Below are positions 2-17,477 of a stretch of DNA of 21,388 bases, piece after piece. How positions within the stretch are numbered: the first letter of the stretch is position 1; every line of letters begins with the position of its first letter. Source of the stretch: a virus; IMG/VR virus record IMGVR_UViG_3300027720_000036, positions 1 through 21,388 of that record, one strand, 5' to 3'. Below the pieces are notes generated by a model. The model worked only from the letters and a program-made list of their open reading frames with translations. It was not told the origin of the DNA and did not search any database. The translations under genes and the position numbers were made by a program.

Positions 2-151
2 GTCAGCCAGACTGCCGGCGGCAGGTTCAGCTTTGCCACCTCCGCTGCCCGCATTGTCGTGATCCCCGAGCCCGAGGCTGTCATCACCATGGTGGTGCTG
101 GCGGTAATGATCTTCATGTGGAGGCCGCATGTGCATCGAGCAACTAGCTGA
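2..151 (+). CDS. C-terminal fragment of a PEP-CTERM-like protein (5' end outside window)
   Basis: Only the last 49 residues are in the window, in an open frame that enters from the left edge. The tail reads VVIPEPEAV, then a hydrophobic stretch (ITMVVLAVMIFMW), then a short basic end (RPHVHRATS). This three-part layout of Pro-Glu-Pro, one membrane helix and a positive C-terminus is the architecture of PEP-CTERM sorting signals. In exosortase-bearing bacteria, planctomycetes among them, exosortase recognises these signals and anchors or releases surface proteins. The stop lies 23 bases inside the next gene, so this is coupled to the phage operon and is not a stray host gene. The body of the protein, and hence its function, cannot be seen. 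A plain C-terminal membrane anchor is the alternative reading. The sorting role is inference. Confidence 0.6.
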   Translation, partial: VSQTAGGRFSFATSAARIVVIPEPEAVITMVVLAVMIFMWRPHVHRATS

Positions 152-404
152 ACTGAATCCCGACGCCCTGACCCCGGATGGTCTGGAGTCTGCCTACGTC
201 GGCTTCACCTGCAACCACCACCATGCCCATGTCGCCGTGTACTCGTTTGAGCGGTGCGTTGAAGTACTCGTTACCCGTGACGGGATGAGCAACGATGACG
301 CTGAAGAGTTTCTCCATTTTAACACGCTGGGTGCGTGGGTCGGTGAGAACGGGCCGCTGTTCATCCTTACGGGAGCCTGCGATGGCGAAGCTAAAGAAGA
401 TTGA
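129..404 (+). CDS. Small conserved phage protein with a FNTLGAWVGENGP motif, function unknown
   Basis: A 91-residue protein. Its distal part, DGMSNDDAEEFLHFNTLGAW followed by VGENGPLFI, matches from memory a widespread family of short phage proteins with a 'D-A-x-E-[FY]-[LF]-x-F-N-x-x-G-A-W-V-G-E' core. To my knowledge that family has no established function. A His-rich patch (CNHHHAH) sits near residue 30. The ATG at 129 is chosen because GGAGG (120-124) sits 4 bases upstream. The gene overlaps the PEP-CTERM-like frame upstream and the following gene downstream, so it belongs to a coupled operon. It is soluble, with no signal peptide or membrane segment. Confidence 0.8.
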   Translation: MCIEQLAELNPDALTPDGLESAYVGFTCNHHHAHVAVYSFERCVEVLVTRDGMSNDDAEEFLHFNTLGAWVGENGPLFILTGACDGEAKED

Positions 405-594
405 GTGCTTGGGCGGGCCGCTCGATGGGAAGCGTGTCGCTGTCTCCAACGAGGTGGACTTCGTCACAACGAACCTAAACCCGCTGGTAACGCATTGGTA
501 CAACCGCGAAGAGCAGCAGATGGGCAAGCGGGTGCGGCAGGTGTTCCGCCATTACGAGATCCATGTCGGCCCAGAGGACGGCCAGAATGACTGA
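382..594 (+). CDS. Small hypothetical phage protein with a GGPLDGKRV motif
   Basis: A 70-residue protein starting MAKLKKIECLGGPLDGKRVA. The N-terminal 'GGPxDGxxV' signature followed by a short beta-rich tail ending in an aromatic 'HYEIHVG' strand recalls small phage proteins of unknown role. I recognise the pattern but not a function. The ATG at 382 is preferred over an in-frame upstream ATG at 295 because GGGAG (371-375) sits 6 bases before it and because the upstream extension would lie wholly inside the preceding gene. It overlaps the preceding gene by 23 bases and the following gene by 8, consistent with translational coupling. Confidence 0.72.
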   Translation: MAKLKKIECLGGPLDGKRVAVSNEVDFVTTNLNPLVTHWYNREEQQMGKRVRQVFRHYEIHVGPEDGQND

Positions 595-787
595 TACCGA
601 GTCTGCCCGGGTCGCTCCCGGCTATCTGGGGGATGGAGTTAGCCCCAGCCACAACGACAAAAATCTCCACCATATTCTCACCGACGCGGAGCGGGAGGCG
701 ATTGAGCGTGCCGCGTTTGTTTCTGATCAGGCGGGGCTCGAGAAGTCAGCCGCCACGCTCCGCAACCTACTGGAAAGGATGAAATGA
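587..787 (+). CDS. LTDAEREAIE-family small protein, copy 1
   Basis: A 66-residue protein whose second half, LTDAEREAIERAAFVSDQ, ends in ATLRNLLERMK. A near-copy is encoded by the next gene. The likely fold is two amphipathic helices: one from LTDAEREAIE, one from the LRNLLERMK end. There is no catalytic motif. From memory this 'LTD-E-REAIE ... ATLR-LLER' pattern recurs in planctomycete and planctomycete-phage sequences without a known role. The ATG at 587 follows AGAGGA (573-578) with an 8-base spacer. The next gene starts in the ATGA overlap at 784-787. Confidence 0.7.
   Translation: MTDTESARVAPGYLGDGVSPSHNDKNLHHILTDAEREAIERAAFVSDQAGLEKSAATLRNLLERMK
677..706 (+). repeat. 30-bp perfect direct repeat, copy 1
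   Basis: This is identical to 877-906 and encodes the LTDAEREAIE core in both duplicated small genes. The flanking codons diverge quickly, so identity is confined to this block. Confidence 0.9.
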
Positions 788-1008
788 GAATTGACCCCGA
801 CGCGTGTCGCGACCCAGACCTCCTTGCCGCAGAGTTGCGGCGATTGCGAACCGTAATCGCAGCAGGCGAGCCAACCCTCACCGACGCGGAGCGGGAGGCG
901 ATTGAGGATGCGGCAGGAATCTGTGAGGAACACGCAGAGGAATACGACGGCACGGATAGCTCACCAATTGCCGACACTCTCCGCAAACTGCTGGAGCGTC
1001 TGAAATGA
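784..1008 (+). CDS. LTDAEREAIE-family small protein, copy 2
   Basis: A 74-residue paralogue of the preceding product. It adds an N-terminal helix (CRDPDLLAAELRRLRTVIAA), then repeats LTDAEREAIE and ends ADTLRKLLERLK. The acidic middle (EEHAEEYDGTD) replaces copy 1's linker. A 30-base identical DNA segment (677-706 and 877-906, exactly 200 bases apart) marks either recent duplication or local gene conversion. It is joined to its neighbours by ATGA overlaps at both ends, so the two copies and the next gene are almost certainly translated from one message. Function unknown. The paired helices suggest a protein-binding or dimerising role, which is speculative. Confidence 0.72.
   Translation: MRIDPDACRDPDLLAAELRRLRTVIAAGEPTLTDAEREAIEDAAGICEEHAEEYDGTDSSPIADTLRKLLERLK
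877..906 (+). repeat. 30-bp perfect direct repeat, copy 2
   Basis: This is the second copy of the 30-base block at 677-706, in the same reading phase within its gene, and exactly 200 bases away. Confidence 0.9.
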
Positions 1009-1364
1009 CCGATAACGAACAGAAGGTCTTGGTAGGTGTCATGCTGTCTGAGATCGGCACGGCACAGAAATACAACTCCCTAGTGTCTGAGTTGCAGGCC
1101 GATATCGAGCGGCTGCGGGGCGAGGCCCGGTACTGGCGGACGATGTACCAGCACAACTGCAAAGAGCCGCAGTGGATGGACATCTCTAAGGTGACGCCGC
1201 CAGACGAGAACCGGCAGTACCTGCTCTACACGACTGCCCTAGAGGGATTCGTGTGGATCGGCCGGCGTGGCCCGCTGCCCAAGTCAGTCACTCACTGGAT
1301 GAGCGTGCCAGAGCTACCGCCGCCGTCACTACGGCAGGATGAGCCCGCCTCTGGGGAGCCATGA
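1005..1364 (+). CDS. DUF551-like phage protein with an N-terminal coiled coil
   Basis: A 119-residue protein. Residues about 20-50 are helical and coiled-coil-like (SLVSELQADIERLRGEARYW). Residues about 56-105 read WMDISKVTPPDENRQYLLYT ... VTHWMSVPELPPP, which fits the DUF551 pattern 'W-I-x-V-x-x-x-x-P-x-x-x-x-x-Y-L-[VL]-x-T ... V-T-H-W-M-P-L-P-x-P-P'. DUF551 is a small beta-rich phage and prophage domain without an assigned activity. The gene starts in an ATGA overlap with the previous gene. Its last 36 bases overlap, tail to tail, the minus-strand gene that follows, so no terminator separates the two convergent units. Confidence 0.82.
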   Translation: MTDNEQKVLVGVMLSEIGTAQKYNSLVSELQADIERLRGEARYWRTMYQHNCKEPQWMDISKVTPPDENRQYLLYTTALEGFVWIGRRGPLPKSVTHWMSVPELPPPSLRQDEPASGEP

Positions 1365-2633
1365 CTGCTCAGTACGCTGTTTCCTGAGCTTGGCCTCTTC
1401 CTCGATAGCCTTATCCCGCTGTACCTGCTGGGCAGAGTACTCCGCGGCGGCATTAGTCGGCACGTTACCCGAAGTTTTAAAATTCTCAGAATTCGATACG
1501 TCTGGGTGTTGGGTCACAGCCAGCCAGTTCAAGGGGCTCGAAACCTCATCGATACCTTCCCGGGCGACCACTCCAGCAGCTGCTTTGGCAAACCCCTTGC
1601 CTAGCCCACCGACCAGCCCAAACCCGAGCGATGCGACCGAGAATGGGTCGAACGCCTCGTGGCCCATGTCGGCCCAGAACTCTCCGGCGGGAGAGTACTG
1701 AACGCCCTTTGAATGCCCATAGTCTTTCACCGACGGGGCACCTGATTGCTCGACCAGCCCCCTCAGAGCGTTGCCGTATTCGCTTCGCTGATCCGGGGTC
1801 ATGCCTTCAGGCACCGGGAAGCTGGCCCGGCCGACATCCTTCTCAGCCCGCTCGTGGGTGCGGCTGTCTGACAAGCCGGACAGGATGTTCGATCCCCACT
1901 TGTACCCGTGGTTGATCAGGTCGCCGGCTGCCCTGACAGCTGCGTTGGGCATGAACGGCAGATCCGGCTGATCGTTCTTCAGGAGCGGTGCGTCGTCTCG
2001 CCGGGAAGCCCGCATGCTGGCGGTCGGCCAGACGTTCATCTCCGAGAGCACCTGACCGACGACGGTGTCGCCGTTGTTCTCGGTGTTCCCGAGAGAGTGC
2101 TGCCCCGGGTAGTGCGTGGACATCCAGCTGGAGTGGTGCTGGGGATCAGCCTCAGCTGCTTCGTGGTATCCGACCGCGTCGTTGAGCCGCTGGGCCCGTG
2201 TGGCTGGGCTGAGAGTCGTCGCCTTCCCCCACGCTGACGATGGCAGTTCCAGCTGGGCCGGGTTGTTGTCTTCGTCTACCCCGTAGTTGATGCCGCCAAC
2301 GAGGTGCCGGCTGCTCGGAACAGGCTGACGATTCAACACTGAGTTCAGGAGGTTGCTGTCTCGCAGTGATCCGTAGACCTTCTGGTCGCCCGGGCCGAGC
2401 GAGTACGCGCCGTTCCGCTCACTGTCCGCGATTCCCTCGACATGACCCTGAGCCGACTTAGGGATCACATCATCGAGGTGCGACACCAGCGCCGCATGCA
2501 CCGGATGGTCTGGGTTCAGCAGGATCGCAGCAGCTGCATCGGGGTCTATGCCGGGGGCGTGACGCTGCGCTAAAGCCGCTAGATGCGGGGTGATTCGCTG
2601 CCTCGCAGCGGCCATGAAGTCGTTGTCTGCCAT
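1329..2633 (-). CDS. Unknown 434-residue protein, the only clear minus-strand gene
   Basis: The protein is 434 residues from the ATG at 2633, which has GGAGG (2638-2642, read on the minus strand) just upstream. An in-frame TTG 48 bases further out is less likely. Residues 1-60 are Ala/His-rich and helical. Residues about 155-200 hold a striking polar block with HEAAEAD, HH, THYPGQH and a later LSEMN. A Gly/Ala-rich hydrophobic stretch (FSVASLGFGLVGGLGKGFAK) lies at 331-350, and the C-terminus is charged and coiled (residues 400-423). It reads like a minor or internal virion protein, and the HEAAE and HH elements vaguely recall small podophage structural proteins, but I cannot name a family. 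HEAAE lacks the second His of a zincin HExxH. The plus strand has no competing long coding frame here. Confidence 0.72.
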   Translation of the reverse strand: MADNDFMAAARQRITPHLAALAQRHAPGIDPDAAAAILLNPDHPVHAALVSHLDDVIPKSAQGHVEGIADSERNGAYSLGPGDQKVYGSLRDSNLLNSVLNRQPVPSSRHLVGGINYGVDEDNNPAQLELPSSAWGKATTLSPATRAQRLNDAVGYHEAAEADPQHHSSWMSTHYPGQHSLGNTENNGDTVVGQVLSEMNVWPTASMRASRRDDAPLLKNDQPDLPFMPNAAVRAAGDLINHGYKWGSNILSGLSDSRTHERAEKDVGRASFPVPEGMTPDQRSEYGNALRGLVEQSGAPSVKDYGHSKGVQYSPAGEFWADMGHEAFDPFSVASLGFGLVGGLGKGFAKAAAGVVAREGIDEVSSPLNWLAVTQHPDVSNSENFKTSGNVPTNAAAEYSAQQVQRDKAIEEEAKLRKQRTEQSWLPRGGLILP

Positions 2634-2637
2634 TGGG

Positions 2638-2642
2638 CCTCC
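2638..2642 (-). promoter_or_regulatory. Shine-Dalgarno GGAGG deciding the start of the minus-strand gene
   Basis: CCTCC on the plus strand is GGAGG on the minus strand, 4 bases before the ATG at 2633. It favours that ATG over the upstream in-frame TTG at 2681. Confidence 0.6.
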
Positions 2643-2690
2643 ACTGAATTTATGGAGCAGATCCGAGAAGTCGGGCCACAAAGTCAGAAA

Positions 2691-2716: not shown

Positions 2717-3178
2717 ATGACCCGACTCTTTGTCGCTGCCTTGTTGGCGGCTTGTGTTTCCAGTTTCGCGAAAGCCGAAAGCCCTACTGGCAACAGGCTT
2801 TACCGCACCGAATGTAACAACGGCGTATGTCGCCGGGTGTACGTCGGAAGCGAGTGGGAGAACTCGATCGTTGACAAAGTCAACAGCGAGCGTGCTACCC
2901 GCGGCCTTCGCCCTCTCGTTGTCACCCAGAAGCTGATGGGCCTAGCCCGCAGCTGGTCGGGTCGTCAGGCGAATGAGCGTCGGATGTACCACTCCGGCTG
3001 GTCAGGCATGGGTGAGAACGTCGCCTACGGCCAGAAGGGCCCTTCTGAGGTGATGACCGCATGGATGAACAGCCCCGGCCATCGGGCCAACATCCTCAAC
3101 CCGAAGTACTCCGAGATCGGTGTTGGCGTCGTGATGTCGAGCAACGGCCAGCCCTATTACACGCAGCACTTCCGTTAA
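2717..3178 (+). CDS. Exported CAP-domain (SCP/PR-1-like, YkwD-type) protein
   Basis: A 153-residue protein. Residues 1-20 form a signal sequence (MTRLFVAALLAACVSSFAKA). It could be cut after AKA (20) by signal peptidase I, or at LAAC (10-13), which also fits a lipobox, giving a lipoprotein. A CxxxxC pair (C33, C38) follows. The CAP domain spans about 48-153: VNSERATRGLRPL, MYHSGWSGMGENVAYG, WMNSPGHRANIL, YSEIGVGVV and YYTQHF. The residues expected in the CAP cavity are present (H92, E100, H122, E133). Bacterial CAP proteins are secreted or surface proteins of mostly unclear activity. AGGAG (2706-2710) sits 6 bases before the ATG. It lies alone between a minus-strand gene and the scaffold gene, as an accessory (moron-like) gene might. 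Domain identity is firm. Its role in infection is unknown. Confidence 0.93.
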   Translation: MTRLFVAALLAACVSSFAKAESPTGNRLYRTECNNGVCRRVYVGSEWENSIVDKVNSERATRGLRPLVVTQKLMGLARSWSGRQANERRMYHSGWSGMGENVAYGQKGPSEVMTAWMNSPGHRANILNPKYSEIGVGVVMSSNGQPYYTQHFR

Positions 3179-13338: not shown

Positions 13339-13496
13339 TGCCCCAGAGCCCCAGACTCCTGCGACCTGTTGCCCGGAAGTCATCCGGCACGGTGAACCCG
13401 CCGCCGCCGGCTGTGACGTATCGCATCCTCCAAGAGAGCGTGTTCCGCATCCTCACCGAATCCGGCTCGCCACTCCGTAAGGAGCAGACAACCTAA
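13338..13496 (+). CDS. 52-residue microprotein with paired RILxES motifs
   Basis: The product reads MPQSPRLLRPVARKSSG then TVNPPPPAVTYRILQESVF and RILTESGSPLRKEQTT. A basic N-terminus, a Pro linker and two short repeats (RILQES, RILTES) are seen. From memory, the 'RILTEDG' style repeat recurs in tiny genes within phage tail loci, with no known role. It fits exactly between TGATG (13336-13340) and TAATG (13494-13498) junctions and leaves no gap, the best evidence that it is translated. It also carries the ribosome site (AAGGAG) of the next gene. Confidence 0.62.
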   Translation: MPQSPRLLRPVARKSSGTVNPPPPAVTYRILQESVFRILTESGSPLRKEQTT

Positions 13497-13993
13497 TGGC
13501 CGACACAAAGATATCCGCGTTGCCAGCTGGCACAGCAGTCGCCACCACGCTCCTCCCGGGCGTGAACGGTGCTGTCACGCAGCGAGTGTCAGTCAAGCAG
13601 ATCCTTGACCTCGTGGGAACGATAGCCGGCCCTCCGGGTGCTGACGGTGCCCCGGGCGCTGACGGCCCAGCTGGTGCTGACGGCCAGCCGGGGGCTCCGG
13701 GCGTAGACGGGAAAGATGCTCTCCACATCGTCTCGGTTGTTGAGCCTGCACCGGGCACAGAGATCGGTGACCTGTGGATCGACCCAGACGGAGCGCCTGC
13801 GGGTGGTGCTGGTGGTTCGTTCGATGACGCAAGCCCGATCACCTATGACTCGCAGGAAGTTGTGCAGCAGACGAACGGTGATCCCATCGGCCTGTCGCCA
13901 GACGGCCTGACGTTCCACCAACCGACCATCGTCGCGGCTATCCCGGTGGTGGTGAACGGCAAGCGATACCTCCTTCCCCTTTGCGAGGAGTAG
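13496..13993 (+). CDS. Collagen-like tail-fibre protein
   Basis: A 165-residue protein. The N-terminus MADTKISALPAGTAV ... VNGAVTQRVSVKQ (1-35) is the common phage 'KISALPAAT ... LLPVVxGGVTxR' fibre/anchor module. Ten uninterrupted Gly-X-Y triplets follow (45-74: GPP-GAD-GAP ... GKD), which would trimerise as a collagen-like rod. Next come the GDLWIDPDGA patch (about 92-101) and a C-terminal segment ending GLSPDGLTFHQPTIVAAIPV, VVNGKRYLLPLCEE. It is part of the adhesion apparatus. The start overlaps the preceding stop in TAATG, and the next gene begins 2 bases after the stop. Confidence 0.85.
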   Translation: MADTKISALPAGTAVATTLLPGVNGAVTQRVSVKQILDLVGTIAGPPGADGAPGADGPAGADGQPGAPGVDGKDALHIVSVVEPAPGTEIGDLWIDPDGAPAGGAGGSFDDASPITYDSQEVVQQTNGDPIGLSPDGLTFHQPTIVAAIPVVVNGKRYLLPLCEE

Positions 13994-16672: not shown

Positions 16673-16697
16673 CACTTAGATTCGAAAGGTATTGAAC

Positions 16698-16758
16698 ATG
16701 GCATCCGATGTCCGAATTTGGGACGGCAGTGCGTGGGTTAGCCTGAAGGGGCCCACTG
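16698..16758 (+). repeat. Duplicated fibre-anchor DNA, copy 1
   Basis: Encodes MASDVRIWDGSAWVSLKGP. It aligns without gaps to 17540-17600 and shares long identical blocks such as AATTTGGGACGGC and GCGTGGGTTAGCCT. Confidence 0.85.
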
Positions 16759-17477
16759 GTAACACCGGACTTCCGGGTACCGGCGCGACCGTAACCGTTG
16801 CCGGAACCAACACGGTGGCGGCGGGGACTCCCGCTAGCGTTACCGACTCTAACGCCGACCCGTCGATTGCGAACCTGACGTTTAACATCCCGCAGGGTGC
16901 GGCCGGTGCCGCGGCGACCATCGCTGTGGGCACTGTCACCTCTGGTGCTGCGCCTGCCGTCACCAATTCCGGCTCAAGCTCGGCGGCGGTATTCAATTTT
17001 GTGTTGCAGAAGGGTGACAAAGGTGATGCCGGCAGCGGTGTTACTATCAAGGGCACTCTGCAAGGCGCAGCCACACCGCTTCCGACCTCCCCTGTCGCGG
17101 GTGATATGTACATCATTGGCACTCCGGTGCCGACTGCGGTTAGTACTTTGGTTCCGAGTGCTATCGCTGGCGACGGACTGGTGTGGTCAGGCACGGCGTG
17201 GACTGACGTTGGGCCTGTCAGGGGGCCGCAGGGCGCGACCGGAAACACTGGTAACGCCGGCACTAACGCCACTGTCTCTGTAGGGACTATTACTACGGGT
17301 GCCGCCGGTAGCCCGGCGAGTGTTACGGACGGCGACCTCGCCAATCCGAACAACGTGGTGCTGAACATGACGATCCCGCAGGGCGCGAAGGGTGATGCCG
17401 GTACGAACTATCAGGTTTACAACACCGTCACCACTCCGGTCGGCATGTTGTCTGGCGCTATCTGGCTCGTTCCTTGA
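16698..17477 (+). CDS. Collagen-like tail-fibre protein, SDVRIWDG anchor
   Basis: A 259-residue protein. The anchor MASDVRIWDGSAWVSLKGP (1-19) leads into collagen-like triplets. Three copies follow of a phage fibre module of the form ATVxVGTxTxGA ... SVTD ... FxIPQGAxGxAG, beginning near residues 30, 73 and 193. A GDMYIIG patch sits near 136-142, GLVWSGTAWTDVGPVRGPQG lies before the last module, and the end is MLSGAIWLVP. Gly/Ala/Thr-rich throughout. The ATG at 16698 has GAAAGGT 7 bases upstream. An in-frame TTG at 16692 is unlikely. The role is structural, in the adhesion fibres. Its first 60 bases are nearly duplicated at the start of the next gene. Confidence 0.82.
   Translation: MASDVRIWDGSAWVSLKGPTGNTGLPGTGATVTVAGTNTVAAGTPASVTDSNADPSIANLTFNIPQGAAGAAATIAVGTVTSGAAPAVTNSGSSSAAVFNFVLQKGDKGDAGSGVTIKGTLQGAATPLPTSPVAGDMYIIGTPVPTAVSTLVPSAIAGDGLVWSGTAWTDVGPVRGPQGATGNTGNAGTNATVSVGTITTGAAGSPASVTDGDLANPNNVVLNMTIPQGAKGDAGTNYQVYNTVTTPVGMLSGAIWLVP

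Follow-up and report, generated by a model that had tools for sequence, protein, structure and literature searches.

The closest described counterpart of the proteins considered here is the PEP-CTERM domain (TIGR02595 / PF07589), which Haft et al. reported in 2006 together with the exosortase EpsH (PF09721) (PMC1569441). Sorting by the PEP-CTERM/exosortase route occurs widely among environmental bacteria and is poorly understood. PEP-CTERM proteins have a signal peptide, a unique ectodomain, and a C-terminal region made of PEP, a hydrophobic helix, and one or more positive residues; they show little homology outside the domain and are often encoded by stand-alone genes (PMC1569441). The same principle, i.e., a signal peptide combined with a C-terminal motif, a helix, positive charge, and a membrane enzyme, is found in the LPXTG/sortase system of Gram-positive bacteria, although the motif, the enzyme family, and the envelope are different, and EpsH is not homologous to sortase (PMC1569441).

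The phage proteins described here share the architecture of the PEP-CTERM proteins, along with their limited homology outside the domain and their frequent occurrence as stand-alone genes. However, they differ in being encoded by phages without an exosortase, in having a reduced basic cluster and, in several members, a charged extension, and in scoring for the most part under the model cut-off. At the family level, their best match is NF038129, an NCBIfam family of PEP-CTERM proteins, which is hit by the last 55–65 residues of two of them, L011 (E 2.6e-4) and L050 (E 0.0046); the phage tails reach 14–21 bits against a cut-off of 65, and the match is mainly to the tail. Searches of the open-access literature on PEP-CTERM or exosortase and phage or viral genomes, judged mostly from titles and abstracts, found no phage PEP-CTERM protein described. 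A paper on Microcystis viruses that names PEP-CTERM refers to genes of the host. What appears to be new is a phage-borne family of PEP-CTERM-like proteins, PEP-CTERM sorting itself being already known.

The window gene and its tail

The window, i.e., the whole stretch of DNA that was analysed, has 21,388 bases and corresponds to its viral record end to end, and the PEP gene starts before base 1. Its gene content includes a CAP-domain protein, a major head protein, a terminase large subunit, and a portal-like protein. The features of the PEP gene region are the following:

2..151, plus strand: truncated phage gene, 3′ end only, encoding the last 49 residues of a predicted exported protein with a PEP-CTERM-like tail (open frame; best match of an HMM built from relatives only, E 1.8e-5)
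65..73, plus strand: Pro-Glu-Pro codons CCC GAG CCC (read from the sequence; in the 11-row alignment A3, no other columns are invariant)
77..121, plus strand: hydrophobic helix of 15 residues, AVITMVVLAVMIFMW, mean hydropathy 2.67 (AlphaFold models of relatives have a helix directly after PEP)
122..148, plus strand: weakly basic short end, RPHVHRATS (translation)
129..404, plus strand: phrog_13182 gene, of unknown function, which overlaps the PEP gene by 23 bases and in several relatives is found close to it

Frame 2 has no stop codon from base 2 up to the TAG at 149–151, and its translation (P0001) reads VSQTAGGRFSFATSAARIVVIPEPEAVITMVVLAVMIFMWRPHVHRATS, with PEP at residues 22–24 and VVIPEPEAVITMVVLAVMIFMWRPHVHRATS as the last residues before the stop. 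The preliminary description had read in this tail a PEP motif, a membrane helix, and a basic end, in that order. The order is indeed present, as PEP is followed by an uncharged hydrophobic run of 15 residues and then by R..H.HR.., but the basic end is weak, with two Arg and two His, whereas host tails have three to five Arg/Lys. The overlap of 23 bases with the next gene, also claimed there, is exact: the downstream ORF starts with an ATG at 129, inside the PEP gene and with GGAGG just 5′ of it, and the PEP gene stops with the TAG at 149–151. The coupling to a phage operon that had been read from this overlap is a property of the window and not of the family, because the plus-strand overlap with phrog_13182 is peculiar to the window, while in several relatives the PEP gene stands alone on the opposite strand.

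The window tail alone gives no match to TIGR02595 (cut-off 16 bits), and its single NCBIfam match is NF038129, with 14 bits and E 0.033, far under the cut-off of 65. Since it lies below the TIGR02595 cut-off, the tail is named PEP-CTERM-like and not a member of the model, and the window protein can be classed as PEP-CTERM-like within a family that has one TIGR02595-passing member.

The protein encoded at 129–404 (plus strand) also occurs in the large Bacillus phages Mater, Grass, and BSP38 and in a 309 kb Tunturiibacter phage, with 30–55% identity. Elsewhere in the window, two adjacent small ORFs at 563–1008 (plus strand) have a common module, LTDAEREAIE...LR(N/K)LLER(M/L)K, and related phages have several small proteins with similar endings, LTDEE...TLRSLLERL. 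An ORF of 450 residues at 1329–2681 (minus strand) lies amid plus-strand genes and has no family match, and a similar ORF is found in the same place in the related record L003. Collagen-like Gly-X-Y stretches (GPPGADGAPGADGPAGADG...) are present at 13496–13993 and 16692–17477 (plus strand), among likely tail-fibre genes. The CAP-domain protein (2717–3178, plus strand; PF00188 E 4e-18, phrog_16914) has an apparent signal sequence, and many Pirellulales genomes contain DNA similar to short parts of its gene, e.g., 41 bases at 90%, in keeping with capture from such a host.

The family in related phages

With the window head protein, 43 related viral contigs were retrieved, and a tail search of these contigs revealed several with a similar ending composed of VPEP and a helix, encoded on the other strand from the head gene. 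The PEP gene was found in ten related phage contigs, namely L011, L016, L018, L019, L024, L026, L028, L033, L050, and the fragment L049. The relatives are laid out as an N-terminal export signal, an ectodomain of about 170–200 residues, PEP, a hydrophobic helix, and a variable end. Export signals were recognized by inspection wherever the N terminus is present, for example MKKFLCLLAILFASPAAAG or MLRSLAFALALACAAVLGLAFSLFGAGMALAG, and these signal sequences have A-x-A ends, as in the former. P, E, and P alone are invariant in the alignment of 11 rows, which includes the window tail, and they are still kept where the identity between subgroups drops to about 17–43%. The preliminary description had proposed to look for a signal peptide in the complete protein and for the ending in related phage contigs, and both are seen in the relatives, with PEP kept in all homologues.

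The gene is present in 11 of 42 records, the window counted (some records are fragments, where absence is uncertain), and is missing from L003 and L004, the records of the closest head-protein (MCP) relatives; it is therefore accessory. In the four relatives that were mapped (L011, L018, L024, and L026), the PEP gene is read in the direction away from the rightward genes next to it; these include phrog_13182 in all four and start with an SSB-like gene in L024 and L026. No additional PEP protein was found in further phages with a phrog_13182 gene (L087–L106). Regarding the subgroups, L011 and L050 are mutually related (E 5e-8), and they show weak homology with the L028 and L018 groups (E 0.4 and 1.9), although a profile of the ectodomain alone ranks them first and second among the non-member frames out of 11,730. 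This pair may represent distant relatives of the L028 and L018 groups or parallel PEP proteins, and L011, the member that passes TIGR02595, is weakly akin to the subgroup of the window. The 49-residue tail alone gave no confirmed match in viral contigs, a full-length relative gave none among the INPHARED phages, and the ectodomain gave weak matches and no family match in Pfam and PHROGs.

Selection was estimated as dN/dS by the Nei–Gojobori method, on short samples and for within-group pairs with enough change. The values for the ectodomain are 0.06 (L028/L026), 0.07 (L028/L033), 0.13 (L028/L016), and 0.18 (L018/L024). More than 20 residues beyond PEP, they are 0.04 and 0.25 for the two L028 pairs that are closest, and 1.4 (L028/L016) and 2.1 (L018/L024) for the other two pairs. 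The ectodomain is clearly under purifying selection, and the far end is much less constrained.

Two AlphaFold models, obtained from nine-row alignments with a mean pLDDT of 58 and pTM of 0.51 and 0.55, both have an N-terminal helix, a beta-sandwich, and a helix that begins at PEP or just past it. For the first model, the best PDB matches include carbohydrate-binding modules: CBM61 matches the low-confidence ectodomain model with a Foldseek E of 6e-4 and VIA-align Z scores of 7.9–8.2 (at best Z 8.2, 109 residues aligned, rmsd 2.9), and the carbohydrate-binding domain of a pectate lyase does so with Z 8.8 (111 residues, rmsd 3.3). CBM61, CBM6, and CBM16 have a beta-sandwich fold like that of the ectodomain model, although at about 10% identity, for a common fold, and with a model pLDDT of 58. 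It is a reasonable guess from these models that the ectodomain binds polysaccharide.

Candidate hosts and their exosortase

The freshwater phages of the PEP family probably infect planctomycetes, a phylum for which few phages have been studied. When 84,980 species genomes were scanned by pattern for the head protein, a single relative was confirmed. It lies on a 55-kb contig in a Pirellulaceae MAG, and this contig has scaffold-like, head, terminase, and portal genes as in the window phage; the assembly of this MAG includes a second relative contig, and relatives of the head protein and of the terminase occur in another Pirellulales assembly (G817). Phage contigs binned into MAGs are host evidence of moderate weight, and for the window phage itself the host is a candidate one. 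A search for CRISPR-spacer links between the window DNA and 396 Pirellulales genomes yielded gene-level similarity and short matches only. On a 148-kb Planctomycetota contig (G602:C14; L107/L068/L108), distant terminase, portal, and head genes lie beside a tRNA-Met and a resolvase; this contig elsewhere encodes cellular-type proteins, e.g., ThuA and a di-haem cytochrome c peroxidase, and because of these genes and the resolvase a prophage is likely there.

The candidate host MAG encodes an exosortase (PF09721 E 2.4e-29) with the CxG, NxxR, and HxxxG motifs, which correspond to the residues that Haft et al. gave for exosortase (PMC1569441), and has 15 PEP-CTERM tails above the cut-off. Exosortase is present in 153 of 199 Pirellulaceae genomes and was found in none of the 42 phage records, so that sorting would depend on the enzyme of the host.

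The 15 Pirellulaceae tails consist of PEP, usually 15–16 uncharged residues, and three to five Arg/Lys, with the end within 4–12 residues. In the phage tails, PEP and the hydrophobic run are kept and the basic cluster is reduced. The first Lys/Arg is often at position 17 after PEP (window, L011, L028, L033, and L049), likewise in most host tails, whereas the residue that follows PEP is often E/D in the phage and S/T/G/N in the host. Past the first helix, a charged and often acidic stretch of 10–36 residues follows in L016, L018, L024, L028, L033, and L049, in contrast to the terminal RRRR of the host; the L028-type tails are acidic, whereas the end of L011, KKRSNHGSCRA, fits the basic-cluster feature. 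L011 passes TIGR02595 with 18.2 bits against the cut-off of 16, while L049 (13.0), L050 (12.1), and L028 (10.1) do not, and most family members, the window among them, are under the curated PEP-CTERM cut-offs. Of the checks proposed in the preliminary description, the PEP-CTERM model is thus passed by L011 and not by the window tail, and the exosortase to be looked for in the host is there in the candidate MAG, along with the 15 tails.

Exosortase substrate or membrane anchor

A chance resemblance, i.e., an unrelated C terminus with PEP and a hydrophobic run, would agree with the weak basic end and with a tail that alone stays under TIGR02595, but it is very improbable. The HMM A4, built from the relatives only and with the window sequence left out, ranks 2–151 first among the 421 frames of the window, with the E value given above, and when the divergent L011 is removed too it scores this frame at E 1.8e-4 and the next one at 0.88. 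Moreover, in 7,851 frames of the related contigs, those ending in PEP and a strongly hydrophobic run are the PEP family, the other pattern matches being, by eye, proline/serine-rich or otherwise weakly hydrophobic. Chance is thus rejected at the homology level by the relatives-only HMM, and by this comparison of sequences the similarity of the window tail to those of its relatives is not fortuitous. The gene might instead be a recently captured or decaying PEP-CTERM gene of the host, useless to the phage, as its accessory distribution, its degenerate basic cluster, and the many PEP-CTERM genes of Planctomycetota could suggest. This is improbable in view of the purifying selection on the ectodomain and of the occurrence of the gene in divergent phage subgroups, often beside the same genes; in addition, no ectodomain homologue was found in 241 Pirellulaceae genomes, where four weak matches concern the tail region only.

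The main rival to sorting by an exosortase is a plain membrane anchor, in which the protein would face the periplasm and act, e.g., in superinfection exclusion, with PEP kept structurally as a rigid juxtamembrane linker and no exosortase involved. The charged extensions past the helix, the few basic residues in most members, and the model scores under the cut-off favour it, and the long hydrophobic N terminus of the L028 and L018 groups could be an uncleaved anchor. Against it stand the exact conservation of P-E-P, and of nothing else, in 11 rows while the helix sequence drifts, the PEP-15/16-K/R spacing that several members have in common with host PEP-CTERM proteins, and the one member above the TIGR02595 cut-off, which are the reasons for the exosortase reading, as well as the link of these phages to an exosortase-rich host group. 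We regard the plain anchor as a serious alternative, albeit the less likely one.

With modest confidence, we lean towards a phage-encoded, Sec-exported protein whose PEP-CTERM-like signal would be processed by the host exosortase, and which would be placed on the surface and alter the envelope. The signal peptide would carry the phage protein over the planctomycete inner membrane through the Sec pathway, and the C-terminal helix would serve as a temporary anchor in this membrane, with PEP facing the periplasm. PEP would then be recognized by the host exosortase, which would cut off the helix, and the beta-sandwich ectodomain would be released to the cell surface or the exopolysaccharide. There it would probably bind or mask surface polysaccharide and change the envelope of the infected cell, with limited superinfection or limited adsorption to debris as possible effects. 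The export and anchoring steps rest on sequence; we infer the processing by exosortase, the final location, and the function, and likewise the acceptance by the host enzyme of tails that mostly have few basic residues and, in some cases, charged extensions. The central claim of the preliminary description, a phage protein sorted by the enzyme of its host, has gained a gene family, export signals in the relatives, the kept PEP, and an exosortase in the candidate host, with processing as its putative step.

More broadly, and with somewhat less than even confidence, we propose that planctomycete phages may carry genes for exosortase substrates of their own, whose signal is modified (PEP, helix, a single Lys/Arg, and a charged end), hijack the host enzyme, and coat the infected cell with a polysaccharide-binding phage protein, a phage-borne display route not known before. 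If true, viruses would exploit the PEP-CTERM/exosortase route, and the family would offer a small natural set of substrates with variant signals for testing the requirements of exosortases, as well as a pointer to the remodelling of the planctomycete surface by phages.
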